Below, one piece after another: positions 47,955 through 64,000 of a stretch of 64,000 nt of DNA (positions within the stretch are counted from its first letter, which is position 1; each line of letters opens with the position of its first letter). A program made the translations under genes and the position numbers. The notes beneath the pieces are model-generated. The model searched no databases and had not been told where the DNA came from. It saw only the letters and a program-made list of their open reading frames with translations. Where the stretch lies: positions 5,332,001 to 5,396,000 of the forward strand of contig NZ_CP163518.1 of NCBI RefSeq assembly GCF_041080625.1. The letters are read 5' to 3'. Origin of the DNA: Streptomyces sp. CG1. GTDB taxonomy: Bacteria > Actinomycetota > Actinomycetes > Streptomycetales > Streptomycetaceae.

Positions 47955-49090
47955 CGTCCCGCCTCCACGATCGCGACGGCGTTGATCCCGCCGAAGCCGA
48001 AGGCGTTCAACTGCATCAGGGTCATCTCCTCGTTGTGCGGCGCGCCGGTGACGAATCGGAAACCGGCCGCCTCGTCCACCGGGTCATCCAGGCCCACCGT
48101 GGGCGGCACCCGGCTCTCGGCCAGGGCGCGCAGGCCCACCACCAGGTTCAGCAGACCGGAGCCGCCGGAGGTGTGCCCGGTCATCGACTTGACAGCGGTC
48201 ATCAGCGGGCGGGCGCGGTCCGCGCCGAGCACTTCGGCGAGGGCGACCGCCTCGGCCTCGTCGTTGAGCAGGGTGCCGGTGCCGTGCAGCATCACCAGAT
48301 CCAGATCAGCCGGGGTGACCTGGGCCATCCGGTGTGCCTCGCGCATCGCCACAGCGATTCCCTCCGGGGATGGCGCTGTGGCGTGGTACGCGTCGCAGTT
48401 CACGGCGACGCCGCGCAGCCGCCCGTGCACCTGCTCGCCGAAGCCGTCGCGGCGAAGTACGACCGCGGCGGCGCCGTCGCCCATCAGGACACCGGTGCGG
48501 TTGCGGTCGAAGGGCCGTACCCGGTCCGGGGCCTGCGGATGGACGCGTTCCAGCAGCCCGTGCATGCTCTCCGTCAGGACATCGACGCCGGCGACGATCA
48601 CCGCGTCCGGGGCGTCCTCCTGAGCTAGCAGGTCGGAGCCCATGGCGAGCGCGTACAGGGAGGCGGAGCAGGCGTTGGAGAAGGTGTGGGCCTGCACGGC
48701 GCCGAAGCGTTCACGCAGCACCGGGCCGAAGTCCAGGTCCTTTTCCGTCAGTTGGTGCTCGCCGCGCCACCACAGCTCCAGGGAGCGCAGTTCGCGCAGG
48801 CCGGTGCCGACCAGGACAGGGACACCGCTCAGGTCCTCGCCGAGCCCGGCCCCCTTGGCCGCCTGGGCGACGGCGTCGAGCAGCAGGGCGCTCGCCCGGC
48901 CCGGGACGTCCTGGCCCTCGGCCGGGCGGTTGTCCACCTCGTAGGCGTGCCGGGCCCGGAAGTTGGCGCGGTCGAAGCCGCGCAGCGGGGCGTGCCCGGT
49001 CTTTCCCGCGCACAGGTTCTCAAACAGCTCGTCGACGTCCCGGCCGATACTCGCCACGGCCCCGATGCCGGTGATGGCCTGGTTCAGCAC
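47951..49090 (-). CDS. Beta-ketoacyl-ACP synthase (ketosynthase alpha)
   Basis: A 379-residue type II condensing enzyme. The nucleophile is in FSNACSASLYAL (about residue 140), the first His in LHGTGTLLND and the second in VKSMTGHTSG, so the full Cys-His-His set is present. It extends ACP-bound chains by decarboxylative condensation. It overlaps the following short partner by 4 bp and the preceding KS by 7 bp (stop at 49084), giving a run of translationally coupled genes. Confidence 0.93.
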   Translation of the reverse strand: MLNQAITGIGAVASIGRDVDELFENLCAGKTGHAPLRGFDRANFRARHAYEVDNRPAEGQDVPGRASALLLDAVAQAAKGAGLGEDLSGVPVLVGTGLRELRSLELWWRGEHQLTEKDLDFGPVLRERFGAVQAHTFSNACSASLYALAMGSDLLAQEDAPDAVIVAGVDVLTESMHGLLERVHPQAPDRVRPFDRNRTGVLMGDGAAAVVLRRDGFGEQVHGRLRGVAVNCDAYHATAPSPEGIAVAMREAHRMAQVTPADLDLVMLHGTGTLLNDEAEAVALAEVLGADRARPLMTAVKSMTGHTSGGSGLLNLVVGLRALAESRVPPTVGLDDPVDEAAGFRFVTGAPHNEEMTLMQLNAFGFGGINAVAIVEAGR

Positions 49091-50415
49091 AGCGCCTTCT
49101 CCTTGTCTTCCGCGCCGGACGCGGCGTATTCCGTGTCGGATGCGGCGGCCGTGTCAGCTGCGTCGTACCTGCCGAAGAGGACCACCGCGTTGTTGCCGCC
49201 GAAGGCCAGCCCGTTGTTCTGCACGACCTTGAGGTCGGCGTCGATGGCCTCGTTCGGCACACAGTCGACGTCGCACTCCGGGTCCGGCGTGACGTGATTG
49301 ATGGTCGGCGGCGCGAAACGGTTGTCGATGGCCAGCGCGCAGCCGATGGCGCCGAGCGCGCTCGCCGCGCCCATGCTGTGCCCGAGCATCGACTTCATGG
49401 ACACGGTGCGCGGCGGCCGGCCGCCGAACACCTGGCGGATCGCGCCGACCTCGGTGACGTCGTTGGCCTTGGTGCCGGTGCCGTGCGCGGAGATCAGGTC
49501 CACCTGCTCCGGGGTGATCCCCGAGTTCTCCAGAGCCCGCTCCATGCACCGGGCGACGCTCGCCTGGTTCGGCGCGACCTGGTGGTAGGCGTCGCAGTTG
49601 AGGCCGTAGCCGAGGACTTCGGCGTAGATGTGGGCACCACGGGCGAGCGCCGACTCCAGGCGTTCCAGGACGAGCACGCCCGCGCCCTCGCCGGTCAGGA
49701 TGCCCTGACGGTCGACGTCGAAGGGCTGACAGCGGTCGGGGGCGATGGTGCCGAGCCGGTAGAAGCCGGTGAAGGTCTTGCGGCACATCGCATCCGCGCC
49801 GCCGCAGAACGCGAACTCCGCCTCGCCCGAGCTGACTGCGTCGTAGCCGTAGCCGATGGCGTAGTTACCGGCTGCACAGGCGGTCGGTACGGTCACCGCC
49901 TCGACGTCGGACAGACCGAGCTCCTGGGCGATGGCGACCGACAGGTGCCCGGCGGGAACCCGCCGGGCCGCGGCCGGGTCCATCTTCTCGGCGCCCAGGG
50001 TGATCTCGGTCTCGACCAGCTGGTCGAGGTCATAGGACTCCCCATCGGTGGTGCCGATGGATATCAGGCCACGCCGCTCGCGCAGGGCGGCGGGATCGAG
50101 GCCGGAGTCCTCCACAGCCATACGAGCCGCGGCCACCGAGAACTGCGCAGCCCGCCCGAGCTGGTCGAGCTGGAGGTTGGTGATCCACCGGCCCGGGTCG
50201 AACCGGGTGACCTCGCACCCGGTCGAGTGGGAGTATCCGCTGGTTTCGAACACCGAGATGGGCCGCGCCCCGCTGCGCCCCGCACGGAGTCCGGCGAGGA
50301 ACTCCGTCGCGCCCAGGCCGATGCTGGACACCACCCCCAAGCCGGTGAGCACGACCCGGTGGCCGCTGCCCTTCGCCGCTCCCTTGGCCGGCTCGAAGAC
50401 TTGCTGTGCTGACAT
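49084..50415 (-). CDS. Beta-ketoacyl-ACP synthase, FabF-like
   Basis: A 443-residue condensing enzyme with all three active-site residues: Cys in VPTACAAGNYAIG, His in SAHGTGTKAND and Lys/His in MKSMLGHSMGAASA. It is the KS of the cluster closest to primary FabF in length and motif wording. It could start chains or extend them without a CLF. An ACP gene lies 72 bp upstream and the next KS overlaps its end. Confidence 0.93.
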   Translation of the reverse strand: MSAQQVFEPAKGAAKGSGHRVVLTGLGVVSSIGLGATEFLAGLRAGRSGARPISVFETSGYSHSTGCEVTRFDPGRWITNLQLDQLGRAAQFSVAAARMAVEDSGLDPAALRERRGLISIGTTDGESYDLDQLVETEITLGAEKMDPAAARRVPAGHLSVAIAQELGLSDVEAVTVPTACAAGNYAIGYGYDAVSSGEAEFAFCGGADAMCRKTFTGFYRLGTIAPDRCQPFDVDRQGILTGEGAGVLVLERLESALARGAHIYAEVLGYGLNCDAYHQVAPNQASVARCMERALENSGITPEQVDLISAHGTGTKANDVTEVGAIRQVFGGRPPRTVSMKSMLGHSMGAASALGAIGCALAIDNRFAPPTINHVTPDPECDVDCVPNEAIDADLKVVQNNGLAFGGNNAVVLFGRYDAADTAAASDTEYAASGAEDKEKALC

Positions 50416-50487: not shown

Positions 50488-50742
50488 CTACCAGCCGGCA
50501 GCCTCGGACACCACCTGGTACACGCCGTCGATGTTCACCATCCGCGGCAGCTCGGACTGGTCGATCACGACGCTGAACTTCTTCTCCAGAGCCGCGAGGA
50601 TCTCAATGGCACGCAGCGAATCCGCCTTGTGGTCCTCCTTGAAGAGGCTGGTCGGCGTGACCTCGTCCTCCTCGATCTCCAGAATGTCGCACACAATCTC
50701 CTTGATGATCTCGATACGCTCGGCGAGCTGGGTCTCGGGCAT
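50488..50742 (-). CDS. Acyl carrier protein
   Basis: An 84-residue ACP. The phosphopantetheine attachment serine lies in HKADSLRAIEI (about residue 42). Charged helices typical of carrier proteins flank it (IVCDILEIEEDEV). It differs clearly from the other two ACPs of the cluster. The start is the ATG at 50742 with an AAGGAGAA ribosome binding site. A 158-bp gap upstream separates it from the dehydratase gene, so it may have its own promoter. Confidence 0.94.
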   Translation of the reverse strand: MPETQLAERIEIIKEIVCDILEIEEDEVTPTSLFKEDHKADSLRAIEILAALEKKFSVVIDQSELPRMVNIDGVYQVVSEAAGW

Positions 50743-50900: not shown

Positions 50901-51881
50901 TTAGCCGACCAATGCGCCGGCGGGCCGGCGGGCGAGCACGGCCGCGCCCACGGTCAGGACGACCTCGCCCCGTACCCGGGTGGTGCCCTCGAAGATCTGG
51001 ACGCCGTCGACCGTGCGGGCGAGCCGCACGGAGTGTTCCAGCAGGTCGCCTGGGAGCACCGGGGTGCCGAAGGCGAGATCGGTGTAGCCGCCGAGCATCA
51101 GGACCTCGTCGGCCAGCACGTCCGTGTTGGCGCGCTCGGCGGTGGCGAGCACCGCTGCGGCCTGGTTGAAGGACTCCATGAGGAGTCCGATCGGATAGCT
51201 GTAGGCGCCCGGGTCGGCTGCCTCGTCCGCGAGCCACCGGTACCAGGGCTCGCCGAAGGTCACCGCTTTGACCGCGGTGACCCGGTCGCCGGGGTGGAAG
51301 GTGTCGACCCGATCGATGAGCAGGAGCTGGTCGCGATGCGGGATCCGGGCCATCACCTCGGGCAGCGACAGCGGGCCAAGACCGGCCCTGCTGCCGGAAG
51401 CCGGCTCCCCGGCGGCCGGCCCGCCGACCGCGGGCAGCGGCGCGACGGGAGCGTCCGCGCTCTCGTAGCGCAGCCGGATCCGAGCCACCTGGTGGTCGTC
51501 CGTGGCCGCCGTGACCCGGCACACCCAGCCCTGCGTGTCGCGCTTCCACCGCAAGGTGAAGTGCAGGGTGTCACCGGGGTAGGAGGGGTGCAGGAAGCGG
51601 GCCGACTCCAGACGGGCGAGGCGCAGCCGAGGGACGTCGGCGGGTGTGTGGACCAGGGCCGCACGGTGCGCGGTCTCGACGAGGAAGACCCCGGCGAAGA
51701 TCGGGAAGCCGCGGTAGTGGCCCTGGAAGACCAGCTCGTCCCGGTCGAGTGGCAGAGTGACCGTCGCGCCGTCGAAGCCGTCGGTACTGACGGAGCCGTA
51801 GTAACCGTAGGCGCCGGTCCATCCGGTACGCAGCTCGGTGAACGGTGTGCGCACCGACCGGCATTCGGGATGGAGGGTCAT
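50901..51881 (-). CDS. Fused double hot-dog dehydratase (FabA/FabZ-like didomain)
   Basis: A 326-residue protein with two hot-dog domains. The N-terminal one (about residues 1-150) carries the His motif FQGHYRGFPIFAGVFLVE. The C-terminal one (about 185-326) begins with MARIPHRDQLLLIDRVD and has YPIGLLMESFNQAAAVLA where FabZ has its catalytic acid helix. Together they match, in order, the two separate dehydratase genes at 62636 and 63070. It should remove water from 3-hydroxyacyl-ACP to give conjugated enoyl chains. The stop overlaps nothing; its start overlaps the stop of the following ACP by 4 bp. Confidence 0.88.
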   Translation of the reverse strand: MTLHPECRSVRTPFTELRTGWTGAYGYYGSVSTDGFDGATVTLPLDRDELVFQGHYRGFPIFAGVFLVETAHRAALVHTPADVPRLRLARLESARFLHPSYPGDTLHFTLRWKRDTQGWVCRVTAATDDHQVARIRLRYESADAPVAPLPAVGGPAAGEPASGSRAGLGPLSLPEVMARIPHRDQLLLIDRVDTFHPGDRVTAVKAVTFGEPWYRWLADEAADPGAYSYPIGLLMESFNQAAAVLATAERANTDVLADEVLMLGGYTDLAFGTPVLPGDLLEHSVRLARTVDGVQIFEGTTRVRGEVVLTVGAAVLARRPAGALVG

Positions 51882-52138
51882 GCGGCGACTTTCCCGGACA
51901 GCAGGGTGTAGGTCTGGCCGAAGTTGGTGATCAGGCCGAACTCCTCCTCGGAGATCTTCACGCCGAACTTCTTCTCCAGCTGGACCAGGATTTCCAGGCC
52001 CATCAGGGAGTCGACGCCGAGGTCCTCGATGTAGTGGGCGTCGTCGGTGACCTCGTCGACCTCGACGTCCAGGGCATCGGCGACGAGTTCGCGCAATTCG
52101 TCCTTGTCGAGCACAGCAGTCGTCATCTTCTTCTTCCT
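51876..52138. repeat. 263-bp duplicated ACP block, copy 1
   Basis: This stretch and 55520-55782 are identical except for one base (A in GCGCAATTCG here, G in the other copy). The repeat covers the whole ACP gene, its ribosome binding site and a few flanking bases, and stops abruptly outside them. The single change is silent. Confidence 0.97.
51878..52126 (-). CDS. Acyl carrier protein, duplicate copy 1
   Basis: An 82-residue ACP with the attachment serine in GVDSLMGLEI (about residue 40). The protein is identical to the one encoded at 55522-55770. The gene lies between the thioester-reductase-like SDR and the fused dehydratase and overlaps the latter by 4 bp. Having the same ACP twice in one operon may raise the carrier supply or reflect a very recent rearrangement. 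Confidence 0.95.
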   Translation of the reverse strand: MTTAVLDKDELRELVADALDVEVDEVTDDAHYIEDLGVDSLMGLEILVQLEKKFGVKISEEEFGLITNFGQTYTLLSGKVAA

Positions 52139-52168: not shown

Positions 52169-53194
52169 TCAGGCCGCGACGAGCGCCCACGGTTCCGGGA
52201 CCCGCCGGGCGTGCCGGGACTTGGCGTCGGCCCACCAGCGGACCGAGCGGTCCAGCACCTCGGCCGGGTCGGCGACCACCTGGGTGGGACGGAACGGGGT
52301 GGGCATGTTGGCGTAGCCCTCGAACGCGGAGAGCAGCTGCATGGCGCGCTTCTGCACATCGGAGAAGTGCGCCGCAACCAGCGGCAGATGGAACTCGCGC
52401 CAGGTGTCGGAGGGGATGACCGGGGCCACCGGGACCGGAGCGATACCCCGCTCGGCCCGCCATGCGTTGACCGAGCGGCAGATCCCCTCGACCAGGTCGG
52501 TCACCCGCAGGCAGCCCGCCCCCGACGCGATGGTCTCCACCACCGGGGCGGCCGGCGGCCCGCCCAGGGCGGCAGCCACGACGACCTGCGCCACCTGGTC
52601 CACCGGCGCAAGCTCGATGAACCCCGCCGGATCGCCGACCAGCGCAGGCGCGAGCCCGGAGACCAGCGACTGCACCATGGCGTACGGGCCCGTGAGGCGG
52701 GCGATCGAGCCGTCGACGCGCCGCCCGAAGACCAGCGGGGGCCGCACGATGGTCAGCGGACCCTGGTGCCGGGCCCGTACCAGCTCCTCGGACCGGGCCT
52801 TGGACCACTCGTAGGTGTTGCGGAAGCGGCCGAACCCGGCGTCGGAGTCCACGGTGGCCGGGTTCTGGCCTTCGACGTACGCGGTCGAGATGTGCACCAG
52901 ATGGGTGTCGCGGTCGACGACGTCGAGCACGGCCTCGGTGGTGCGCACATTGGCCGCGACGGCTTCGTCCTCGGACATCGTCCAGCGAGTGGACGCGGCG
53001 CTGTGGATCACCACGTCCCAGTGCCCGCGCAGCTCGGCGGGGGGCGGCTCGGCGCCGAGCACCCAACGGCTCTCTCCGGGCCGCAGGGGTCGGCGTGTCA
53101 CCGAGGTCACCTCGGCCTTGTCGCCGAACGCGGCCAGCTGGTCGGCGACTTCACTGCCGACCACGCCGCCGGAACCGGTCAGCAGGATCTTCAT
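52169..53194 (-). CDS. NAD(P)-dependent thioester-reductase-like SDR
   Basis: A 341-residue extended short-chain dehydrogenase. The nucleotide-binding motif is TGSGGVVGSEVADQL (residues 6-20), the catalytic pair is in YEWSK (YxxxK, about residue 135) after STAYVEGQ, and the body follows the male-sterility/thioester reductase pattern. Such proteins release ACP-bound acyl chains as aldehydes or alcohols. Here it could be the chain terminator or a tailoring ketoreductase acting on a sugar-like substrate. It starts at ATG 53194. Confidence 0.82.
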   Translation of the reverse strand: MKILLTGSGGVVGSEVADQLAAFGDKAEVTSVTRRPLRPGESRWVLGAEPPPAELRGHWDVVIHSAASTRWTMSEDEAVAANVRTTEAVLDVVDRDTHLVHISTAYVEGQNPATVDSDAGFGRFRNTYEWSKARSEELVRARHQGPLTIVRPPLVFGRRVDGSIARLTGPYAMVQSLVSGLAPALVGDPAGFIELAPVDQVAQVVVAAALGGPPAAPVVETIASGAGCLRVTDLVEGICRSVNAWRAERGIAPVPVAPVIPSDTWREFHLPLVAAHFSDVQKRAMQLLSAFEGYANMPTPFRPTQVVADPAEVLDRSVRWWADAKSRHARRVPEPWALVAA

Positions 53195-53240: not shown

Positions 53241-53693
53241 TCACGCGGTCGTCGCGGGAGTACCGGCGGCCCGCTCGGCGATCCGGCCGAGCACGGCCTC
53301 CGCGAACTCCCGCAGCGCCTGCTCGGTGATGGGGTGGAGCGTGGCGTCCAGCAGAGGGATACCGGCCTCGAAGGTGAGCGCCAGCTCCACGGCGGACCCG
53401 GTGCCCTCGGCCTCGACCAGCCAGTGGCCGGCCAGGGACGCGAGGGCGCCGCTGGTCTGAGCAAAGTCGATCCGGCGCGCAGCGTGGTCGAAGGTGGCCT
53501 CCTCCTGCCAGCTGAGGCGGGCCGCGCCGAGCAGCACGGTCCAGCGGCTGCTCCGCCGGTCCGCTTCCTGCCGCAGTACGTCGACGGCGACGATCTCCGG
53601 GACGTAGGAGGGGAAGGAGTCGCTGTACGCGAGCGCCTCCCACACCCGCTGCGGGGGCGCTTCGCTCGCGTGACGCGCGATGACGGTGGGCAT
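53241..53693 (-). CDS. SRPBCC-fold protein (polyketide cyclase/START-like)
   Basis: A 150-residue protein of the Bet v 1-like SRPBCC superfamily, with the conserved start VIARHASEAPPQRVWEALAY, a curved beta-sheet pattern and a C-terminal helix (ALREFAEAVLGRIAER). Members hold hydrophobic molecules in a deep cavity and some cyclise or aromatise polyketides. Here it could fold or ring-close the polyene or shield it. No catalytic residue can be assigned. Confidence 0.82.
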   Translation of the reverse strand: MPTVIARHASEAPPQRVWEALAYSDSFPSYVPEIVAVDVLRQEADRRSSRWTVLLGAARLSWQEEATFDHAARRIDFAQTSGALASLAGHWLVEAEGTGSAVELALTFEAGIPLLDATLHPITEQALREFAEAVLGRIAERAAGTPATTA

Positions 53694-53735: not shown

Positions 53736-53847
53736 GGGCCAAGTGGCGGGAGGGCCGGGAGGGGAGTGCCGGCGGAGGGAAGGCCGATGACCCGACGGGG
53801 CCGTTCCGGCACCGGCCCTCCCGCCACTTGGCCCCGGGTCATCGGCC
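53736..53847. repeat. Inverted repeats with two overlapping, mutually exclusive stems
   Basis: A perfect 23-bp inverted repeat joins 53736-53758 to 53812-53834. A second perfect 13-bp repeat joins 53782-53794, inside the first loop, to 53835-53847, outside it. Only one of the two stems can form at a time in a simple fold, an attenuator-like or pseudoknot topology. It fills the gap between the exporter and SRPBCC genes and its outer arm enters the last codons of the exporter. Confidence 0.8.
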
Positions 53848-55488
53848 CGAAGCCACCGGCTCCTCGGTGCCGCCGAGCCGGCCGTCGAGCCCCGCTGCGG
53901 TCTGTTCGCCGCGGGCGCTCTCGTGCAGGTCCCCGGACCGGACGGTCAGGAGCACGAGGACCGTCCCGAGGGCGACCAGGGCCGAGCAGGCGCCCATGGT
54001 GTCCCGCAGGCCGCTCACGAAGGCCGCGTGCGCGGCGTCGGCGGCCCGTGCGGCGAGCCCGCCGGGCAGGGTGGCCACCGCCTCCTTGCCGGCGCCGCTG
54101 GCCACGGCCTCGCCGAACTCGTGGACCTTTCCGCCCAGTGGACCGGCGATCTGCGAGCTGTTCAGGGAGTCGGTGACCCGGCTCTGGAAGAGCGCGCCGA
54201 AGCCGGCGATGCCGACGGCGATGCCGACCTGCTGGAACGTCTCACCGATGCCGGAGGCCATGCCCGCCTTCTCCGGCTCCGCCACACCGACCGACAGGGC
54301 CGCGCGCATCGGCGTGTAGATGCCCATGCCGATTCCCTGCACGATCATGCTGGGCAGCAGCGCGGTCCAACTGCTGTTCTTGTCGATCAGCAGCATCAGG
54401 CCGATACCGGTGGCCATGAGTGCCCCCGACGCGGAGGCCAGGAGCTTCGGCGAGACGGTCGCGGTCAGCGAGCCGCCGATGCCGCCCGCCACGAAGATCG
54501 TCAAGGTCATCGGCAGGAAGCGCAGACCGGTCTCCCACGCGGTGAGGCCCAGCGCGTTCTGCAGATACGAGATCTCCAGGAAGATCGAGCCGAGCACGGC
54601 CGCGTTCCACATCAGCGCGGCCATGGAGATCCCGTTGAAGGTCGGGATGCGGAACAACGAGAGATCCAGCATGGCCGTCTCACCCCGCCGCCGCTCGATG
54701 AGGTAGAAGACCACGAGCAGCACGACGGATGCGGCGAACATGCCCAGGATGAGCGCACTGGTCCAGCCTTCCGCATGGCCGCGCAGGAACCCGGTCACCA
54801 GGAGCCCGAGCGCGCCGGAGAAGACCACCAGACCCGCCCAGTCCACCGGGTGGTGCGCCGTGCCCTTGGACTCCCGGATGCGCAGGGCGCCGGCCGTGAT
54901 CGCGAACAAGCCGACCGGGACGTTCAGCAGGAAGATCCAGCGCCAGCTCAGGTACTGGGTGAGCGCGCCGCCGATGAGCGGTCCGAAGGCGATGGCGAGC
55001 CCGCCCACAGCGCCGAAGACACCGAACGCCTTGCCGCGGTCCTTGCCGTGGAACGCGTTGCCGATCAGTGCGGGCCCGACCGCGAAGAGCACGGCAGCAC
55101 CTATGCCCTGCACACCGCGGGCCAGGTTCAGGACGAGGATGTCCTGCGCGAGTCCGCAGACGAGCGAGCCGAGTGTGAAGACCACGAAACCGAGGGTGAA
55201 TATCCGTTTGCGGCCCAGCTTGTCGGCGAGTGATCCGGCCGTGAGCAGGAACACGGCGAGAGTCAGGGCGTACGCGTCGAGCACCCACTGCAGATCGGTG
55301 AAGCCGACGTCGAACGCGGTCCGCAGATCGGGCAGGGCGACGTTCACGACGGTGAGGTCGAGCAGCAGCATGAAGGTGGCAGCCGAGACCACGGCGAGGG
55401 TCCAGCCGCGCCCCAGGCTGTCCGGGGACCGATGCGATGTCGCGCCGATTTCGTTGCCGGCCACGTCAGGTGATGTCCTTTCAGGCAT
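53839..55488 (-). CDS. MFS exporter of the DHA2 (EmrB/QacA) family
   Basis: A 549-residue drug:H+ antiporter-type protein with about 14 membrane helices. Family motifs include DLTVVNVALPDLRTAF in the first helix, LADKLGRKRIFTLG in the loop after helix 2 and GPLIGGALTQYLSWRWIFLLNVPVG in the antiporter motif C region. It most likely exports the cluster's product and gives self-resistance. It starts at ATG 55488 and sits between two ACP-containing segments of the leftward operon. Confidence 0.93.
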   Translation of the reverse strand: MPERTSPDVAGNEIGATSHRSPDSLGRGWTLAVVSAATFMLLLDLTVVNVALPDLRTAFDVGFTDLQWVLDAYALTLAVFLLTAGSLADKLGRKRIFTLGFVVFTLGSLVCGLAQDILVLNLARGVQGIGAAVLFAVGPALIGNAFHGKDRGKAFGVFGAVGGLAIAFGPLIGGALTQYLSWRWIFLLNVPVGLFAITAGALRIRESKGTAHHPVDWAGLVVFSGALGLLVTGFLRGHAEGWTSALILGMFAASVVLLVVFYLIERRRGETAMLDLSLFRIPTFNGISMAALMWNAAVLGSIFLEISYLQNALGLTAWETGLRFLPMTLTIFVAGGIGGSLTATVSPKLLASASGALMATGIGLMLLIDKNSSWTALLPSMIVQGIGMGIYTPMRAALSVGVAEPEKAGMASGIGETFQQVGIAVGIAGFGALFQSRVTDSLNSSQIAGPLGGKVHEFGEAVASGAGKEAVATLPGGLAARAADAAHAAFVSGLRDTMGACSALVALGTVLVLLTVRSGDLHESARGEQTAAGLDGRLGGTEEPVASGR

Positions 55489-55519: not shown

Positions 55520-55782
55520 GGTCATGCGGCGACTTTCCCGGACAGCAGGGTGTAGGTCTGGCCGAAGTTGGTGATCAGGCCGAACTCCTCCTCGGAGATC
55601 TTCACGCCGAACTTCTTCTCCAGCTGGACCAGGATTTCCAGGCCCATCAGGGAGTCGACGCCGAGGTCCTCGATGTAGTGGGCGTCGTCGGTGACCTCGT
55701 CGACCTCGACGTCCAGGGCATCGGCGACGAGTTCGCGCAGTTCGTCCTTGTCGAGCACAGCAGTCGTCATCTTCTTCTTCCT
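55520..55782. repeat. 263-bp duplicated ACP block, copy 2
   Basis: Second copy of the near-identical block described at 51876-52138; 262 of 263 bases agree. Confidence 0.97.
55522..55770 (-). CDS. Acyl carrier protein, duplicate copy 2
   Basis: An 82-residue ACP identical in sequence to the one at 51878-52126, with its attachment serine in GVDSLMGLEI. It lies directly behind the KS/CLF pair 56800-58002/55826-56803, the classical KS-CLF-ACP order of a minimal type II polyketide synthase. Confidence 0.95.
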   Translation of the reverse strand: MTTAVLDKDELRELVADALDVEVDEVTDDAHYIEDLGVDSLMGLEILVQLEKKFGVKISEEEFGLITNFGQTYTLLSGKVAA

Positions 55783-55825: not shown

Positions 55826-56803
55826 TCAGGCGGTTTCCGGCAGGACACGGGCGACGAGGACACAACCTTCCGCCGTCGCGGTGACGACCAGGTGTTCGCC
55901 GCCGGGGCGGGCCAGAGCGTGCGCCACCTCCCGGACGGCGAGCAGGCAGCCGGTGCCGGCGTCCAGGACATCGGGGACGCCCAGGGTGTCCGCGAGCGCC
56001 GCCGCGACGGCCCCCGCGACCGCCGAGCCGTCACCGATCAACCGCACCGATGCGGCGGCCGCGGGATCCGCTGCGAGCCGGGCCCGGGTGCCGGCCAGCA
56101 CCGACCGGGCGCGTTCGGTCCCCGCCTCGCCCATGGCGGCGTGCGGGGGGAGCGAGGCCGAGGCCACCTGGATGCGTCCCAGTGCCCTCCCGGCGCGGGA
56201 CCGCACCGCGGCCGCCTCCTCGATGACCAGGGCGAATGCTCCGTCCTCGGTCGTCCCGGAGCTGTGCACCGCCGCCTTGTCCGCCTCCGGAGCCGGGACT
56301 TCGGTGGCACCCGCGAGCAACCAGCGGGCGCGTCCGTAGTGCAGCGCGCGCAGCCCTGCCTGGAGTGCTTCGAGCCCTGCCGAGCGGGGACTGTGCACGG
56401 CCAGGCTGAACCCCTTGAGGCCGTACTCCATCGCGACGCGGCTCGAGACCAGGTTCGGGGAGAAGTACGGCACGGCGGCGGGCGAGATCAGATGGGCCTC
56501 GCCGGCCACGGTGGCCCGGTCGACCTCGGCATGCACCGCGGACACCCCGTGGTTGGTGCCGACTGCGACCGCCCGCTCGTCCTCGGGCACGGCCAGAAGC
56601 GCGTCCTGGATGCCGTCCGGTACCAGGGCTCGCTTGGCAGCAGCGAGCATGTACTGACAGGACGCCGGGATATGGCGGTATCCGCGCCCCAACTCGGCGC
56701 GCTGGTCGAACCACTGCGCCGGTTCGGGCCCGGCGTCCGGGGGCAGCACCGAACCGACGGCCGTGACGACGAACTCGGCATCGGCAGGTCGGGAGAAGGT
56801 CAT
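55826..56803 (-). CDS. Chain length factor (ketosynthase beta)
   Basis: A 325-residue ketosynthase-fold protein without the nucleophile: the segment LAVHSPRSAGLEAL has Arg where KS has Cys and where aromatic-type CLFs have Gln. The C-terminal His elements are also lost. It overlaps the preceding KS by 4 bp, so the two should form a heterodimer. Length and sequence style are very close to the second CLF at 61601-62578. The start is the ATG at 56803. Confidence 0.9.
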   Translation of the reverse strand: MTFSRPADAEFVVTAVGSVLPPDAGPEPAQWFDQRAELGRGYRHIPASCQYMLAAAKRALVPDGIQDALLAVPEDERAVAVGTNHGVSAVHAEVDRATVAGEAHLISPAAVPYFSPNLVSSRVAMEYGLKGFSLAVHSPRSAGLEALQAGLRALHYGRARWLLAGATEVPAPEADKAAVHSSGTTEDGAFALVIEEAAAVRSRAGRALGRIQVASASLPPHAAMGEAGTERARSVLAGTRARLAADPAAAASVRLIGDGSAVAGAVAAALADTLGVPDVLDAGTGCLLAVREVAHALARPGGEHLVVTATAEGCVLVARVLPETA

Positions 56804-58002
56804 GACGGTGCTCCGGTCAGCGCGAGGGAGATGTTGTTGCCGCCGAAGGCGTACGCGTTCACCAGCGCCACCCCGGAGTCGAGGACCGTGGGCGTGGCGG
56901 GCAGGTACACCGGGCACTCCGGGTCGAGCTCGGAGACCGGCGGATTGCCGGGGATGGTGCGGTGGTGGAGGCACAGGGCGGCGAGGACGGTGCCCAGCAC
57001 TGCGGCCCCGCCCGCCAGATGGCCGACGATCGCCTTCAGGTTGTGCAGCGGGATCCGGTCCAGCCGCGGCCCGAACACCCCGGCCATGGCGGCGGCCTCG
57101 GTTGAGTCGTTGAGTTTCGTCCCGGTGGCGTGCGGCACGATCAGCGCGACGTCCTCGGGTGTCGCGCCGGCCTCGGAGAGCGCGGCCCGCATGGCACGGG
57201 CCGCCTGCGCGCCGGTGGGGTCCGGGGCGGTGGGGTGCGCGGCATCGCAGCTCCAGCCGGATCCGGCGAGCCGCGCGTAGATCCGTGCACCGCGCTGCCG
57301 GGCGTGCTCGACCGTCTCCAGCACCACGGCACCCGCACCCTCGCCGAGCATCACCCCGGCCCGGTCGCGGGCGAACGGCCGGGGCCGTTCGGAACCCTGC
57401 GCGCCCATCCTGTTGAAGGCGGCCACCGTGACCCGCGAGTAGGCCTCCACACCGCCCGCGACCACCACGTCCGCCTCACCGGCGCGGATCATCTCGGCGC
57501 CGAGCGCGATCGCATAGCCGCTGCCTGCACAGGCGTTGCTCAAACTGACGGCGCCCGCACCCGCGCCGATCCGCGCGGCCAGCGCCGAGGCCTGTGCGAA
57601 CGGCGGTGAGGCACCGGTCAGCTGCGCGGCCTGCCCGGCCCGGGCCAGCTCCACCTGGCGCGCGTCGCCGACACTGGACCCCGTCACCACCGCCACAGAG
57701 TCCGGCGCCACGTCGTCCAGCCGGGCATCCGCGTACGCCTCGAGGCCCGCCTGAAGGGTGTAGCGGCCGGCCGGGCCGAGGCCCGGGTCCGCACCGGCTG
57801 CCCCTGCGGCCGTAGACGTGCCGCATTCGCCTGTCACGACCTGCGGCACCAGGTAGTAGAGCGGCAGCGGCACCCGGGCGTCCGGGTCGGGGACCCGGTC
57901 GGGGGGTGCGGTGTCGCCGGTCATGACGCGGGTCCAGAAGGTTTCGACACCGGCGCCGAGGCGGCAGACGGCGCCAAGGCCGGTGATGGCGATCTCGCTC
58001 AC
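56800..58002 (-). CDS. Ketosynthase alpha, first gene of the leftward operon
   Basis: A 400-residue condensing enzyme with Cys in LSNACAGSGYAIALG, His in VPHATGTKLNDS and Lys/His in LKAIVGHLAGG. VPHATGTKLND is shared with the KS at 60420, so the two form a subfamily. It pairs with the CLF encoded next. I chose the GTG at 58002 (protein MSEIAITGLGAVCRLGAG) because a GAGGAAG sequence precedes it. Confidence 0.93.
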   Translation of the reverse strand: MSEIAITGLGAVCRLGAGVETFWTRVMTGDTAPPDRVPDPDARVPLPLYYLVPQVVTGECGTSTAAGAAGADPGLGPAGRYTLQAGLEAYADARLDDVAPDSVAVVTGSSVGDARQVELARAGQAAQLTGASPPFAQASALAARIGAGAGAVSLSNACAGSGYAIALGAEMIRAGEADVVVAGGVEAYSRVTVAAFNRMGAQGSERPRPFARDRAGVMLGEGAGAVVLETVEHARQRGARIYARLAGSGWSCDAAHPTAPDPTGAQAARAMRAALSEAGATPEDVALIVPHATGTKLNDSTEAAAMAGVFGPRLDRIPLHNLKAIVGHLAGGAAVLGTVLAALCLHHRTIPGNPPVSELDPECPVYLPATPTVLDSGVALVNAYAFGGNNISLALTGAPS

Positions 58003-58247: not shown

Positions 58248-59243
58248 ATGTCCATGACCGACACGAACACGGACCACGCTCTCGAGGCCGCGGTGACCGC
58301 ACTGGTCAGCCGGCCCAGCGAGGTCACGGTGCGCCCTCGCTACGAGGGCAACAACATCAACACCTGGATCGGCTTCAAGCACGTCAACTACATGGTGGAA
58401 GAGGCCGTCCTGGCGCACTTCCGTACGCACGGCCTGCCCTCGCGCGTGCTGTTCGAGGACTACGGCCTCGGTCTGGAGATCACGGACCTCGACACCCGTA
58501 TCCTCAACGCCTTCCACCTGGACGAGGCGGCCACCGCCAAGGTGGAGCCGGTGGGCGACGGCAGCGCACTCTCCTTCCGGGTCGTCCTGACCAAGGACGG
58601 CGAGACCAAGGACGTCACCGCCAAGGTCAGGGTGGCGCTGCGCCGCGAGCGGTACGTCGACCCGACCGACTCCGTGCCGGCCGAGCTGAAGCGATTCGCC
58701 GTCGAGAAGATCGCCACCGCCGAGCCGGTCCGCGACGCGGAGCTCGTCCCGGGAGCGGACCTGGGCCTGACCGCCACGCACAACACCGACGCGCTGCTCA
58801 AGGAGCTCACCGAGGGTGCCAACGCGATCGCCTGGCGGTGGCGGATCGCCTACCCGTACTGCCACAACAACGAGCGCCTGCAGATGTCCGGCTATCTGCG
58901 TCTGATGGAGGAGGCCAAGGACCGCCTCGTCGCACACCGGGGCATCTCGATCAAGACCCTGCTGGACGACCGCAAGTGGATCCCCGTCGTCCCGCGCTCC
59001 ACGATCACCTTCCTCGACGAGGCGCTGATGGAGGAGGAACTGCACATCGTCTTCACCGTCGAGGAGATCTTCAAGGACGTCACCTACACCTCGCGGATGG
59101 ACTGCTACGTCATCCGCGACGGCAAGCTCGTGCCCACCGCGACGGGCACCATCGTGCACGGCTATGCGGACTTCACCAACCGCAAGGACTGGTCCCTGGT
59201 CTCCTTCGACGAGCACGTCCTCGCGGCGCTGCGCGGCGAGTGA
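58248..59243 (+). CDS. Double hot-dog thioesterase-like protein
   Basis: A 331-residue protein made of two hot-dog domains of the 4-hydroxybenzoyl-CoA thioesterase type. The first (about residues 25-150) contains GNNINTWIGFKHVNYMVEEA and the second (about 190-325) contains AYPYCHNNERLQMSGYLRLM and VPRSTITFLDEALMEEELHI. It could hydrolyse acyl-ACP thioesters for editing or release. It leads the rightward operon and is followed 5 bp later by the first DsrE-fold gene. An ATG at 58254 is an alternative start. Confidence 0.78.
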   Translation: MSMTDTNTDHALEAAVTALVSRPSEVTVRPRYEGNNINTWIGFKHVNYMVEEAVLAHFRTHGLPSRVLFEDYGLGLEITDLDTRILNAFHLDEAATAKVEPVGDGSALSFRVVLTKDGETKDVTAKVRVALRRERYVDPTDSVPAELKRFAVEKIATAEPVRDAELVPGADLGLTATHNTDALLKELTEGANAIAWRWRIAYPYCHNNERLQMSGYLRLMEEAKDRLVAHRGISIKTLLDDRKWIPVVPRSTITFLDEALMEEELHIVFTVEEIFKDVTYTSRMDCYVIRDGKLVPTATGTIVHGYADFTNRKDWSLVSFDEHVLAALRGE

Positions 59244-59248
59244 CGAGC

Positions 59249-59575
59249 ATGCCCCGCTTCGTACTGGTCGAGTCGACCGGACGCGAGTCGGGTCCGGGAG
59301 CGGCCCGCTTCCTCGCGGACGCGACGGCTCTGGCCCTGGCCGGACACCCGATACGGGTGGTGCTCGTCCAAGAGGGCGTCACCGCCGCGCTGCCCGGCGC
59401 GCTGCCCGGACTCGACCAGGCGCTGCAGGCAGGCGTCGAGCTGCGGGTAGACGCCTTCTCGGTGACTCAACGAGGCCTGACTGCAGCGGAGTTGGTGCCA
59501 GAAGCCCGGATGACCGGAATGGACGAGGTGGCCGACGCCCTGCTCGCCCCGGACACCAAGGTGGTGTGGCACTGA
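59249..59575 (+). CDS. DsrH/TusB-like small protein
   Basis: A 108-residue alpha/beta protein that resembles the DsrE superfamily, in particular DsrH/TusB: an N-terminal strand, helix, then IRVVLVQEGVTAALPG matching the DsrH-type LxxDGV region, and a C-terminal W (KVVWH). It has no cysteine, as expected for the non-catalytic subunit. In known systems TusBCD passes persulfide sulfur between carriers. The next gene starts within its stop codon. The assignment is from pattern only. Confidence 0.6.
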   Translation: MPRFVLVESTGRESGPGAARFLADATALALAGHPIRVVLVQEGVTAALPGALPGLDQALQAGVELRVDAFSVTQRGLTAAELVPEARMTGMDEVADALLAPDTKVVWH

Positions 59576-59979
59576 TGGCCCGTACCCCGCAGACCGAAGT
59601 CCTGCTCGTGGTGATGGGTCCCCCGCACGCCGGTGAGCTGACCACGTCGGTGTTCCGGCTGCTCCAGGCGCTCCTGGAGCGCGGCGCCACCGTCCAGGTG
59701 TGGGCCTGCGGCTACAGCGCCATGCTGAGCCAGGAGGCCCTGGGGGAGCGCAAGCCCGCCAACCTTCTCCACCGGTACGCCGAGTACCCGACGACCGTGA
59801 CGCTGATCCGCGAGCTGCTGGACTCCTTTCCGGGCCGGCTGCACTGGTTCGGCTGCCGGGCCTGCAGCGAACACCGCGGCGCCTGCGGTCACATTCCCGA
59901 GGTCCGCATGCGGGCCCCGCACACCTTCGGCGGACACGTCCGCTCCGCCACCCGGACCCTGTTCATGGGGGTGGCCTGA
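59575..59979 (+). CDS. DsrE/TusD-like cysteine-rich protein
   Basis: A 134-residue protein of DsrE-like fold (EVLLVVMGPPHAGELTTSVFRLLQALLERG at the start). Two elements carry cysteines: WACGYSAM near residue 44, and FGCRACSEHRGACGHIP near residue 95, the latter with three Cys and two His. This is more than the single persulfide Cys of TusD and could hold a metal or a polysulfide. Its start codon overlaps the preceding stop (TGATG) and the next gene begins one base after its stop. Confidence 0.65.
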   Translation: MARTPQTEVLLVVMGPPHAGELTTSVFRLLQALLERGATVQVWACGYSAMLSQEALGERKPANLLHRYAEYPTTVTLIRELLDSFPGRLHWFGCRACSEHRGACGHIPEVRMRAPHTFGGHVRSATRTLFMGVA

Positions 59980-59980
59980 G

Positions 59981-60358
59981 ATGACCTCACTGGCGATCGT
60001 GGAGCGCGCCTACCGCGGCGCGGTGGAGGTCGCGTACTTCGACGCGCTCTTCCTGGGCATCGAGATCCACCGACAGCTCGGGCTTGACGTCGTGCTGCGC
60101 GGCGAGGCGGTCACCTACGCGGTCGAGGCCGCCCCCGCACCGCCCCTGAAGATCGGCGGGCGCCTCCTGGAGGCCCTGGACGCGCCCCGCGAGGACCTGC
60201 TGCGGCTGCGCGAGGCGGGCGTCGGCATCTGGGTGGAGGAGGACGGCCTGGCCGCCCTCGGGATCGGCCGGGAGCGGCTGATCGACGGGGTGCGGTGCGC
60301 GGCGCCCGGCGAACTGGCGGCCCGCTGGCCGGAGTACGACCGGGTCTTCTATCTCTGA
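59981..60358 (+). CDS. DsrF/TusC-like small protein
   Basis: A 125-residue DsrE-superfamily-like protein: an N-terminal strand, then AVEVAYFDALFLGIEIHRQLGLDVVLRGEAVTYAV, which has the form of the DsrE/DsrF helix and following strand, and a C-terminal region with one Cys (GVRCAAPGEL). With the two preceding genes it makes a complete B-D-C-like set in one operon. No TusA, TusE or cysteine desulfurase gene is visible in the window. Confidence 0.58.
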   Translation: MTSLAIVERAYRGAVEVAYFDALFLGIEIHRQLGLDVVLRGEAVTYAVEAAPAPPLKIGGRLLEALDAPREDLLRLREAGVGIWVEEDGLAALGIGRERLIDGVRCAAPGELAARWPEYDRVFYL

Positions 60359-60419: not shown

Positions 60420-61604
60420 GTGACCGAAGTCGTCATCACCGGCCTGGGGGCGCTCTGCCATCTCGGCGCGGGCGTGGACCGGTTCTGGCAGGGGCTGCTC
60501 GACCCTGTCCCGCCCACCCCGGCCGTCGCCCCTGACCCCCTGGCTCATGTGCCCATACCAGCCTTCTACTTCCTGCCCGAGGGCGCGCTGCCCGAGTGCC
60601 CCGAGACCGTGGACGGCCTCGCGATCGGCCGCGCCACCCGGGCCGCCCTCGCCGTGGCCCAGGAGGCTGTGTCCGACGCGGGGCTGAACGAAGCCGACGG
60701 CGCCCGCACCGCCGTGCTGTTCGGCTCCTCCATCGCCGACGCGTACGTCATCGAGCAGTGGCGCGGCACCAAGTCATTCCCCGAGGACGACCGCTGGACC
60801 CCGGTGTTCGCCACCGCGTCGGTCGTCGCACGGGAGCTGGGCGCACACGGCACGGCGAGCACCTTCAGCAATGCCTGTTCCGGCAGCGGCTACTCGATGG
60901 CGACCGGCGCCGACATGATCCGGGCCGGCGAAGCGGATGTCGTGGTCGCGGGCGGCTTCGAGACATACTCACGGGTCGCACACGCCGCCTTCAACCAGGT
61001 GGGAGCGCTTGACCCGGACAGCTGCCGGCCCTTCGACGCGACCCGGGGCGGCACCGTGCTCGGGGAAGGCGCGGGCGCGGTCGTCCTGGAACGGGCGGAC
61101 GCGGCGCGGGCCCGTGGCGCCCGTGTCTACGCCACGCTGACCGGCTCCGGCTGGAGCTGCGAGGCGTACCACGCCACTGGGCTCGACCCGGAGGGCGGCC
61201 AGATCGTCCGCGCCATGCGCGACGCCCTGGCGGAGGCGGGCTGCACCCCCGACGACATCGACTTCGTCGTCCCGCACGCCACCGGCACCAAGCTCAACGA
61301 CCTCATCGAGACCCAGGCGATGTACGGGGTGTTCGGTGAGCGGACCCCACAGATTCCGTTGCACAGCCTCAAGGCGCTGATCGGGCACACCGGCGGGGCA
61401 TCGGGCGGGCTCGGCGTCGTAGCGGCCGCGCTCTTCCTGCACCACGGCGTGATGGCCCCGAACCTGCCGGTGGCGCACCCCGACCCCGAGTGCCGGGTGC
61501 GGGTGCCGGTCGGGCGCACCCCGGTCGGCCGCATCGGGATGGTCAACTCCTATGCCTTCGGCGGCAACAACATGTCCCTTCTGCTGCGAGGTGAGTCGCG
61601 ATGA
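60420..61604 (+). CDS. Ketosynthase alpha of the rightward operon
   Basis: A 394-residue condensing enzyme starting at GTG 60420 after an AGCGGGAG-type ribosome binding site. Cys is in FSNACSGSGYSMATG, His in VPHATGTKLNDL and Lys/His in LKALIGHTGGASGG. It is the closest relative in the window of the KS at 56800-58002. It overlaps the CLF gene by 4 bp and should form a heterodimer with it. Confidence 0.93.
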   Translation: MTEVVITGLGALCHLGAGVDRFWQGLLDPVPPTPAVAPDPLAHVPIPAFYFLPEGALPECPETVDGLAIGRATRAALAVAQEAVSDAGLNEADGARTAVLFGSSIADAYVIEQWRGTKSFPEDDRWTPVFATASVVARELGAHGTASTFSNACSGSGYSMATGADMIRAGEADVVVAGGFETYSRVAHAAFNQVGALDPDSCRPFDATRGGTVLGEGAGAVVLERADAARARGARVYATLTGSGWSCEAYHATGLDPEGGQIVRAMRDALAEAGCTPDDIDFVVPHATGTKLNDLIETQAMYGVFGERTPQIPLHSLKALIGHTGGASGGLGVVAAALFLHHGVMAPNLPVAHPDPECRVRVPVGRTPVGRIGMVNSYAFGGNNMSLLLRGESR

Positions 61605-62578
61605 CCGCCCTGAGGACCGCTGTCGGCGCCCCGGCGGCCGGCACCGCCGTCATGGACCCGGTGGTGACCGGCGTCGGCGTCGTCACCCGGGAGACCATCG
61701 ACCCGGCGGGCGAGCGGGGCGCCGCCTGGTTCGACCTGCGTGCCCAACTCGGCCGTGGCTACAAGTACTTGCCGAAGGCCAGCCAGTATCTGCTCGCCGC
61801 CACCGCGCGGGCGCTCGCCGACACGGGCGCCGACCTGGCCGACGTACCCGAGCATCACCGAGCGGTCACCATCGGCACCAACAACGGCATGTCCCAGCTG
61901 TACGGCGAGTTCGACCGCACCGTGATCGAGGGTGACTCGACGCTGCTCAGCCCGGCCACGGTGCCGTACTTCTCGGTCAACCTCGTCGGCAGCCGGGTGG
62001 CGATGGAGCACGCCTTGAAGGGCTACAGCCTGGGCGTGCACAGCCCCCGGGTGGCAGGCCTGGAGGCGGTCGAGCACGGCAGCAGGGCGTTGCGCGCCGG
62101 GCGGGCGAGGTGGCTGCTGGCAGGCGCCGCCGAGTCCCCCCTCGACTGGTCGGAACCGGGCAGCGAAGGCAGCGAGGACGGTGCGGTGGCCCTCGTCGTG
62201 GAGCCCGCGGCCGCCGTAGCCGCGCGCGGCGGCCGGGCGCACGGACGGGTCCGAGTGCGCAGCTTCCTGCTGCCGCCGCCGCTGGCGGCCACCGGGGACG
62301 GGACGGCTGCCCGGCTGCTCGGCGCAGCCCTCCACGGGCTCGGTGTGAGCGGCTCCCGCCCGCCGGTGCGACTGGTGGGCGCGGACGATGTCGTCACCGA
62401 AGCCGTCGCGGCAGCCCTGGGCGACGGGGTGACCCGTTACCCGGCCGGAGTCGGTTGTCTGGCGCCGGTGCTCCATGCCACCGAGGCCCTGCTCCGGGGG
62501 GACGCAGAGCAGTTGGTCGTCGGCGTCGCCGCCCAGGGCAATGTGTCGGTCGCCCGCGTGACGCCCGTGGCCGGCTGA
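61601..62578 (+). CDS. Chain length factor of the rightward operon
   Basis: A 325-residue KS-fold protein with GVHSPRVAGLEAV at the nucleophile position (Arg in place of Cys) and no HGTGT element. It shares length and long stretches of sequence style (RGYKYLPKASQYLLAA; PYFSVNLVGSRVAMEHALKG) with the CLF at 55826. The two KS/CLF pairs therefore come from one duplication and flank the divergent promoter. Confidence 0.9.
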   Translation: MTALRTAVGAPAAGTAVMDPVVTGVGVVTRETIDPAGERGAAWFDLRAQLGRGYKYLPKASQYLLAATARALADTGADLADVPEHHRAVTIGTNNGMSQLYGEFDRTVIEGDSTLLSPATVPYFSVNLVGSRVAMEHALKGYSLGVHSPRVAGLEAVEHGSRALRAGRARWLLAGAAESPLDWSEPGSEGSEDGAVALVVEPAAAVAARGGRAHGRVRVRSFLLPPPLAATGDGTAARLLGAALHGLGVSGSRPPVRLVGADDVVTEAVAAALGDGVTRYPAGVGCLAPVLHATEALLRGDAEQLVVGVAAQGNVSVARVTPVAG

Positions 62579-62635: not shown

Positions 62636-63073
62636 ATGACCGTGGGTTTCGCCACCCCGCTCCAGCGCACCGTGCAGCCGACGCACTCCGGCCCGGACGG
62701 CATCACCGCCCGGATCACCGTGGACGCCGATGAGCAGGTGTTCCGCGGACACTACCCGGGCTTCCCGATCTTCCCCGGGGTCTGCCTCGTCGAGTGCGTC
62801 CACCACGCCGCCCACACCCGACCGCCCGCGCCCGGCCGCCCAGTGCTCACCGCCGTGGAGTCGGTGCGCTTCCTCAGCCCCGTCTTCCCCGGCGACGAGG
62901 TGAGCGTGGAGCTCACCTGGAAGCTCAAGGCCGGTTCCTGGAAGGCGTATGCGGCGGTGTCCACGGCGCGCGGAAAGAGCGCGCAGATCCGCCTCGCATA
63001 CGAGTTCGAGGCGGCAGGGGCCGAGACGGCCGGGGAAGCGACGAAGTCCGTCGTGCTGGAGGAGACATCATGA
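62636..63073 (+). CDS. Hot-dog dehydratase, first half of a split pair
   Basis: A 145-residue single hot-dog protein with the catalytic-type His motif FRGHYPGFPIFPGVCLVE (about residue 40). It corresponds to the N-terminal domain of the fused protein at 50901. The next gene overlaps its end by 4 bp and corresponds to the other half, so the two should act as a heterodimer that dehydrates 3-hydroxyacyl-ACP. Confidence 0.86.
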   Translation: MTVGFATPLQRTVQPTHSGPDGITARITVDADEQVFRGHYPGFPIFPGVCLVECVHHAAHTRPPAPGRPVLTAVESVRFLSPVFPGDEVSVELTWKLKAGSWKAYAAVSTARGKSAQIRLAYEFEAAGAETAGEATKSVVLEETS

Positions 63074-63585
63074 TCAGCACAACCCAGCTCAAGCAGACAC
63101 TGCCCCACCGCTACCCCATGCTGCTCGTCGACCGCGTCACCGAGATCGACCCGGGCGTCTCCCTCACCGCCGTCAAGGCCGTCACCTGTAACGAGCCCTG
63201 GTACGCCGACGTGGCGGACGACGCCGATCACGCCTACCCGGTCTCCCTCCTCGTCGAGTCCTGGTGCCAGTCCGCAGGGGTCCTCGCGACCTGGCAGCGG
63301 ATCACCGCCGCGGAACGGGAGGGCCTGGTCATGCTCTTCGGCTCGATCAGCGGGATCGAGGTGCACGGCAGGGCCGTGCCCGGAAGCCTGATCGAGCACC
63401 GGGTGCGCCATGTGCGCAGCGTCGGCACAACGCTGATCTTCGAGGGCGAGAGCCTGCTCGACGGCCGGCCGCTGCTGACCGTCGGCTCCATCGTGATCAC
63501 CATGCGTCCGGGCGGCGAACTGGCCGCACCGGAGGACAGCAGCACCGATATCCGTCCGGAACGAGGAGAGTTGACCCGTGCCTGA
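63070..63585 (+). CDS. FabZ-like dehydratase, second half of a split pair
   Basis: A 171-residue FabA/FabZ-type hot-dog protein beginning with KQTLPHRYPMLLVDRVTEID, the canonical FabZ His element. The acid-bearing helix reads YPVSLLVESWCQSAGVLA, so the position of the usual Glu is taken by the E of VES in a shifted context. It matches the C-terminal domain of the fused protein at 50901. It overlaps the following reductase gene by 8 bp. Confidence 0.88.
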   Translation: MISTTQLKQTLPHRYPMLLVDRVTEIDPGVSLTAVKAVTCNEPWYADVADDADHAYPVSLLVESWCQSAGVLATWQRITAAEREGLVMLFGSISGIEVHGRAVPGSLIEHRVRHVRSVGTTLIFEGESLLDGRPLLTVGSIVITMRPGGELAAPEDSSTDIRPERGELTRA

Positions 63586-64000
63586 GAAGAATGAGACCCC
63601 GACCGCCAAGGTGGCCCTGGTCACCGGAGGCTCCCGTGGCATCGGCCGCGCCTGTGTGCTGCGCCTGGCCCGGGAGGGCTACGACGTGGCCTTCTGCTAC
63701 GCGTCGCAGGCCGAGGCCGCCGAGCTGGTCCGCAAGGAGGCAGCCGGGTACGGCACCCGGATCCTCCCCCTGCAGGCCGATGTCGCCTCTGCCGACTCCG
63801 TGCGCGCCATGGTCAAGCAGGTGGGCGAGGAACTCGGGCCCATCGACGCGCTGGTCACCTCGGCCGGAATCACCCGGGACAACCCGCTGCTCCTGATGAC
63901 CGACGAGCAGTGGCAGCAGACGCTCGACGTCAACCTCACCGGCACCTACAACGTGTGCCGCGCGGTCGTCTTCGACATGCTCAAGCGCCGTTCCGGCAGC
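63578..64000 (+). CDS. 3-oxoacyl-ACP reductase, FabG-like (cut by window end)
   Basis: The first 141 residues of a classical SDR: the NADPH-binding TGGSRGIGRACVLRLA near residue 15, the LQADVAS acid position and the VTSAGITRDNPLL strand. The catalytic Ser-Tyr-Lys part lies beyond the edge. It would reduce the 3-keto group after each condensation and complete the KS-KR-DH set for polyene assembly. It starts at GTG 63578, overlapping the dehydratase stop. Confidence 0.92.
   Translation, partial: MPEKNETPTAKVALVTGGSRGIGRACVLRLAREGYDVAFCYASQAEAAELVRKEAAGYGTRILPLQADVASADSVRAMVKQVGEELGPIDALVTSAGITRDNPLLLMTDEQWQQTLDVNLTGTYNVCRAVVFDMLKRRSGS

Follow-up and report, generated by a model that had tools for sequence, protein, structure and literature searches.

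What would three small genes resembling the subunits of a sulfur-relay complex do in a polyketide cluster? The question is raised by a 64,000-nucleotide stretch of DNA, referred to here as the window (positions 5332001-5396000 of contig 1 of an 11.1-Mb genome), in which three coupled genes (the trio, genes 1 to 3) lie in series, flanked by the gene for a double-hotdog protein and by a ketosynthase (KS) and chain length factor (CLF) pair at 60420-62578. The original prediction had considered carriage of sulfur or recruitment to a new task. On the data below, the trio is best read as a sulfur-relay fold put to new use in a benzene-ring cyclase, with a likely role in ring closure rather than in sulfur carriage.

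The trio and its host cluster

A cluster of 35 genes, with borders of our own choice, was analysed (Table 1). It contains four KS and four CLF genes together with KR, hotdog dehydratase and acyl carrier protein (ACP) genes, in agreement with the polyene-type type II polyketide synthase (PKS) setting claimed originally; a MAT gene is carried beside these, the DSBA-type isomerase homologue and the trio. The placement of the trio between a thioesterase and a KS/CLF pair was confirmed as well, the former being the PF13279 hotdog protein upstream and the latter KS3/CLF3 downstream. Scanning 34 of the 35 cluster genes against Pfam (LuxR3 left out; two proteins without any family) gave no match to a flavoprotein family, and a multimodular NRPS was not found among the genes inspected.

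Table 1 Features of the host cluster, with coordinates counted from the first nucleotide of the window
Place	Feature	Coordinates	Strand	Evidence or remark
1	Phosphopantetheinyl transferase	43476..44213	-	PF01648
2	DSBA-family protein, likely polyene Z-isomerase	44298..44975	-	PF01323, 71.5 bits; Kcn15 counterpart by gene order
3	Chain length factor (label KSx)	45015..46121	-	
4	Alpha/beta hydrolase	46115..46984	-	
5	Chain length factor (label KS1c)	46995..47954	-	
6	Ketosynthase KS1b	47951..49090	-	
7	Ketosynthase KS1a	49084..50415	-	
8	Acyl carrier protein	50488..50736	-	Kcn4 counterpart by gene order
9	Double-hotdog FabA-like dehydratase	50901..51776	-	
10	Acyl carrier protein	51878..52126	-	
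11	SDR, thioester-reductase-like	52169..53194	-	PF07993
12	Polyketide_cyc protein	53241..53693	-	PF03364
13	MFS transporter	53839..55464	-	PF07690
14	Acyl carrier protein	55522..55770	-	PF00550
15	Chain length factor CLF1	55826..56809	-	
16	Ketosynthase KS2	56800..58002	-	
17	Double-hotdog thioesterase-like protein (4HBT_2), directly upstream of trio	58248..59243	+	PF13279, 42.1 bits
18	Trio gene 1 (TusB/DsrH-like, 108 aa)	59249..59575	+	PF02635, 28.6 bits; by gene order Mbg18 / Kcn19
19	Trio gene 2 (TusD/DsrE/YchN-like, 134 aa)	59575..59979	+	Profile, model, invariant Cys; by gene order Mbg19 / Kcn18
20	Trio gene 3 (DsrE-fold, 125 aa, profile-close to gene 1)	59981..60358	+	Profile, model; by gene order Mbg20 / Kcn17
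21	Ketosynthase KS3	60420..61604	+	PF00109/PF02801; Cys153, HATGT, GHT present
22	Chain length factor CLF3	61601..62578	+	KS motifs not found
	FabA/ApeI-like dehydratase	62636..63073	+	
	FabA-like dehydratase	63070..63585	+	
	Ketoreductase KR	63578..64000	+	Continues to 64336 counted from window start

Genes 1 and 2 were missed by a crude GC-frame gene caller, which called an antisense ORF instead. They were accepted as true genes because both are kept as proteins at every fetched locus, and, the caller being crude, gene borders were set from ORF lists, homology and overlaps.

The ACP genes at places 10 and 14 encode the same 82-residue protein and share an exact 220-base repeat (51876-52095 and 55520-55739); judged from these sequences, the twins are products of a recent duplication or gene conversion within one cluster. 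After the KR gene comes a small DUF3995 membrane protein (L033:1406-1840) with relatives in the clusters of loci L003 and L004. Near the cluster, an AMP-ligase/carrier/thioesterase protein (L033:9484-12252) is followed by an epimerase (12327-13259), and these two may act in acyl-chain loading or release.

Fold and conserved residues

The DsrE relation of the trio was recovered through profiles and models rather than single-sequence searches, in which gene 2 gave nothing useful in Pfam, NCBIfam or PDB and genes 1 and 3 gave no match in PDB. In the Pfam check suggested originally, gene 1 matched PF02635 as listed in Table 1, and PF04077 (DsrH) was matched by 6 of 26 gene 1 members. Against PDB, the gene 1 profile was closest to DsrH (2hy5_C, E 0.021) and TusB (2d1p_C, E 0.21), and profile-profile comparison gave 76% probability with TusB and 95% with gene 3. 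For gene 2, the best PDB profile match was Escherichia coli YchN (1jx7, E 0.001), CKTCTDGRG being aligned with CRACSEHRG; the match to E. coli TusD, used as a single sequence, was weak (12%), that of gene 3 to TusC weaker still (4%), and genes 2 and 3 did not match each other in profile comparison. Predicted structures of genes 2 and 3 have the DsrE fold, and the fold of gene 1 was assigned by Pfam only. By profile for all three subunits and by predicted structure for genes 2 and 3, the trio is thus DsrE/TusBCD-related, which bears out the DsrE/DsrF/DsrH-like fold claimed for it. The trio scored 13.9 bits with TIGR03011 (TusB equivalog), far below the cut-off of 49.2, and had no further NCBIfam match at E up to 1. 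Profile searches of PDB found nothing solved that is closer than DsrE-family proteins, so the active site seems to be structurally undescribed in that database. The shared fold in itself shows no function.

Residues C45, C94, C97, R28, W43, W91, R101 and G102 of gene 2 are invariant in 122 of 122 aligned members, forming the pattern C45 plus C94-x-x-C97-x3-R101-G102. In all, eleven residues are strictly invariant, among them three Cys and two Trp. In the alignments, C94 falls at the first Cys in the YchN motif and at Cys78 of E. coli TusD, which we take to be the working cysteine and persulfide carrier of that protein. Of the unusual Cys/His-rich element that had been pointed out in the middle protein, C94 and C97 are thus invariant; H106 is shared by 113 of the 122 members, and C104, the third Cys, is substituted by T, V or A in 95 of them. 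All 26 aligned rows of gene 1 share a C-terminal VWH, and no Cys is conserved among them; in gene 3, residues R12, G13, E16, L39, R40 and G41 are invariant or nearly so (120 rows). Mirror-tree distances of genes 2 and 3 were strongly correlated (Spearman 0.79), and those of gene 1 only weakly with genes 2 and 3 (0.34 and 0.30), a point against the best reading.

The trio shares with TusBCD/DsrEFH the three DsrE-type subunits from adjacent genes and the TusD Cys78 position, kept as C94. It differs in the additional invariant C45 and C97, in the TusB-like subunit without conserved Cys, in falling below the TusB equivalog cut-off, and in that no match to the TusE/DsrC partner (PF04358) was found in the source genome; among 14 control genomes, only E. 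coli gave such a match. YchN differs from gene 2 in having no adjoining TusB- or TusC-like gene in E. coli.

Related clusters and genome distribution

Relatives of genes 2 and 3 that are 88% and 86% identical, respectively, occur in Streptomyces sp. SANK 60404, presumably the strain of the mbg cluster. Window genes were numbered from the phosphopantetheinyl transferase gene (43476), a starting point that we infer. Active-site Cys, HGTGT/HATGT and GH motifs were found at places 6, 7, 16 and 21; the ketosynthase-like proteins at places 3, 5, 15 and 22 lack those His motifs. The passages of PMC13311259 on the mbg cluster (BGC0002441) give the validated KS-CLF pairs as 7-3, 6-5, 16-15 and 21-22. 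All eight KS/CLF genes of the window match these numbers exactly, leaving the trio at 18-20. Tables in PMC10525797 and PMC11945845 give BGC0002441 the name o-dialkylbenzene. The window cluster is a relative from another strain, and is likened to mbg by published gene numbers.

The second comparison was made with the kitacinnamycin (kcn) cluster. A glycosyltransferase of genome G140 (L062:11092-12255) showed no mismatch to PDB 6j31 'kcn28' in an alignment of 388 residues, and G140 therefore holds the kitacinnamycin cluster. Published landmarks, as given in the relevant part of PMC6510318, are kcn4-kcn15 and kcn33 for the PKS, with kcn7 as KS and kcn14 as KR, Kcn21-23 for the NRPS, Kcn27 for the P450 and Kcn28 for the glycosyltransferase. 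ORF counting in G140 gave ACP, KS1a, KS1b, KS1c, hydrolase, hotdog and CLF at places 4-10; ACP, two hotdogs, KR, DSBA-like and UbiB/ABC1-like proteins at 11-16; the trio at 17 (gene 3), 18 (gene 2) and 19 (gene 1), L035:9559-10701; and a membrane protein, NRPS (21-23), three genes (24-26), P450 (27) and glycosyltransferase (28) at 20-28. Genes 16, 20 and 24-27 were recognised by eye from translations, not by family scan. The count agrees with the published places of KR, NRPS, P450 and glycosyltransferase; the mismatch is at place 7, which holds a CLF-like gene in the count, whereas kcn7 is a KS in that part of PMC6510318. The G140 trio is thus likely to be Kcn17-19, an identity obtained by gene counting that is partly based on ORFs judged by eye. 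The gene at the kcn16 place (L035:6606-9479) looks, by translation alone, like a UbiB/ABC1 atypical kinase.

By tblastn, genes 1, 2 and 3 of the window share 43, 57 and 47% identity with their G140 counterparts. Both trios consist of three jointly encoded subunits, each homologous to its counterpart at the kcn17-19 place. They differ in surroundings: the kcn trio runs opposite to the PKS genes and is next to large NRPS genes, and the window trio forms part of a PKS operon, with a hotdog gene on one side and a KS/CLF pair on the other. Gene for gene, then, the window trio matches the one at the kcn17-19 place, and by this analogy it very probably forms a complex, of predicted DsrE/TusBCD fold, that would close an ACP-bound polyene to a benzene ring.

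The 2022 kitacinnamycin paper reportedly describes a three-protein complex that acts first by electrocyclisation and then by dehydrogenation, and of which homologues occur in numerous highly reducing type II PKS clusters. Benzene-ring closure by Kcn17-19 is reported in a passage of PMC9321520 citing Shi et al. 2022 (10.1021/jacs.2c02855); if the trio corresponds to Kcn17-19, the earlier remark that no role in polyketide assembly was known no longer applies. The suggestion that the trio had been recruited for another task was right. A ring-closing function has accordingly been published for relatives already, the window trio being an additional member, and an unexplained conserved trio is joined to a published reaction, in which a linear polyene is turned into a benzene ring. 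YssX of the youssoufene cluster, for which the same passage reports the same benzene-forming reaction, is named there as a separate cyclase and is set apart here by that description. For epoxinnamide, a product with a cinnamoyl-type ring, that source (PMC9321520) reports that homologues of Kcn17-19 and YssX are missing from the cluster; rings of this kind must therefore also arise by other routes, and not all of them depend on the trio. Literature searches outside subscription journals, under DsrE with polyketide or cinnamoyl terms, found no paper on a DsrE-type ring former.

Searching 297 genomes of the taxonomic family with gene 2 gave 25 genomes, two of which were dropped as weak. The match in G068 (E 8e-5) sits over a thioredoxin-reductase-like reading frame and that in G144 (E 5e-4) over a frame unlike gene 2, both without gene 1 or gene 3 beside them, and both vanish in the gene 2 profile search at E up to 1e-6. 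That profile search placed the trio in 23 of 297 genomes (24 loci). Scanning of named genomes gave four loci, of which those of Streptantibioticus silvisoli and S. acidipaludis repeat two loci of the family search and those of S. scabichelini and Streptomyces sp. SAJ15 are additional. At all 25 fetched loci (the window not counted), genes 1 and 3 lie less than 300 bp from gene 2 and the gene order is kept. A survey for KS/CLF co-occurrence in other genomes, as proposed originally, found a KS/CLF-like gene near the trio at 24 of the 25, the exception being a contig of 4,164 bp.

The DSBA-type isomerase was found in 53 of the 297 genomes after two matches, in G057 (E 5e-11) and G084 (E 1e-11), had been dropped from 55. 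It is present in 22 of 23 trio genomes versus 31 of 274 others (p 9e-18; Fisher 9.4e-18, or 2.6e-17 with G057 and G084 kept), G039 having the trio and no isomerase match. The polyene ketosynthase KS1a (E up to 1e-100) occurs in 93 of 297 genomes, including all 23 with the trio versus 70 of 274 others (p 3e-13), and all 53 isomerase genomes carry it. The pattern is therefore nearly nested, from polyene KS to isomerase to trio. On the same contig, the isomerase lies within 40 kb at 20 of 24 trio loci. Against the pattern, it is on another contig or absent at three of the remaining four, the fourth being L048 (below), and 31 of the 53 isomerase genomes lack the trio. These 31 genomes with KS and isomerase are places to look for other benzene-forming proteins, YssX or new ones, and for genome miners the three genes offer a marker of benzene-forming polyene clusters.

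One genome, G061, has a second trio (L048, contig 36) beside a KS3/CLF3-like pair, an ACP, two hotdogs and a KR; neither a DSBA-type isomerase nor a KS1a match was found on its contig. This trio may close a ring with no help from that isomerase, or may rely on borrowing it.

Proposed ring closure and alternative functions

The following course of reaction is proposed. KS/CLF pairs, KR and hotdog dehydratases would build an all-E polyene on the ACP, in which the DSBA-type protein at place 2 would turn one double bond to Z. The trio would bind the bent hexatriene, allowing 6-pi-electrocyclisation, and would help two hydrogens to leave, so that an ortho-substituted benzene results; once the ring is formed, its arm may be extended by another KS/CLF pair. 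An isomerase step and ring closure are also proposed for a related cluster in the pertinent part of PMC9381841. What was observed comprises homology, gene order, the predicted folds of genes 2 and 3, invariant residues, and the joint occurrence of the trio with genes for polyene KS and isomerase-type proteins; from these we infer the order of events, complex formation, the substrate, catalysis and an oxidant held by the trio. Since no flavoprotein was found in the 34 cluster genes scanned, the two-electron oxidant would be held by the trio, come from elsewhere in the cell, or be oxygen. Inside the trio, the CxxC of gene 2 together with C45 is a candidate for it. In its most specific form, a TusBCD-fold hetero-oligomer would have been rebuilt as pericyclase and aromatase, with C94, the former persulfide cysteine, and the newly gained C97 and C45 taking up two electrons as the six-membered ring becomes aromatic, by disulfide chemistry and no flavin, which we regard as unlikely. 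The sulfur-relay fold and the kept TusD Cys position make the chemistry of the ring former directly testable.

One narrower form is contained in this explanation, and its probability is part of that of the whole. In it, a possible but minority case, electrocyclisation is spontaneous, or takes place on the isomerase, once the Z bond has been made, and the trio only dehydrogenates and aromatises, oxidising a cyclohexadiene, perhaps via the CxxC or a bound flavin. The invariant CxxC and C45 could be a redox set suited to this, and the lack of a flavoprotein family in the scanned genes points the same way, as does the mbg paper, in which the isomerase is reportedly named electrocyclase and FAD/FMN invoked for dehydrogenation; against it, ring closure itself is assigned to Kcn17-19 in the passage of PMC9321520 mentioned above.

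Ring closure by the trio is also to be weighed against a role as accessory scaffold, helping KS/CLF meet the ACP with no catalysis of its own. The KS or CLF gene near the trio at nearly every fetched locus fits such a role, but the eleven strictly invariant residues of gene 2 look like an active site and 70 of the 93 genomes that carry the same KS have no trio, making such a role very improbable.

Least probable, and hardly to be expected, is the persulfide relay, placing sulfur on the ACP-bound chain or handing it to another enzyme: the kinship with TusBCD/DsrEFH in profile and fold, the invariant C94 and a single copy of TusA in the genome speak for it, but TusA is more than 2 Mb away from the trio, PF04358 is unmatched in the source genome, the TusB-like subunit lacks a conserved Cys, the distribution of the trio across the 297 genomes follows that of the polyene KS and isomerase genes, the role reported for Kcn17-19 is ring closure (PMC9321520, passage cited above), and the acyl part of kitacinnamycin is given as propenyl-cinnamoyl in PMC6510318, in the part concerned. 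Sulfur relay was set aside as main reading on TusA distance, the absent TusE/DsrC match and Cys conservation, and the predicted sulfur in the product is not supported. The same genome has a second, stronger PF02635 match (41.6 bits) at C1:4975644-4975961, about 0.4 Mb away.
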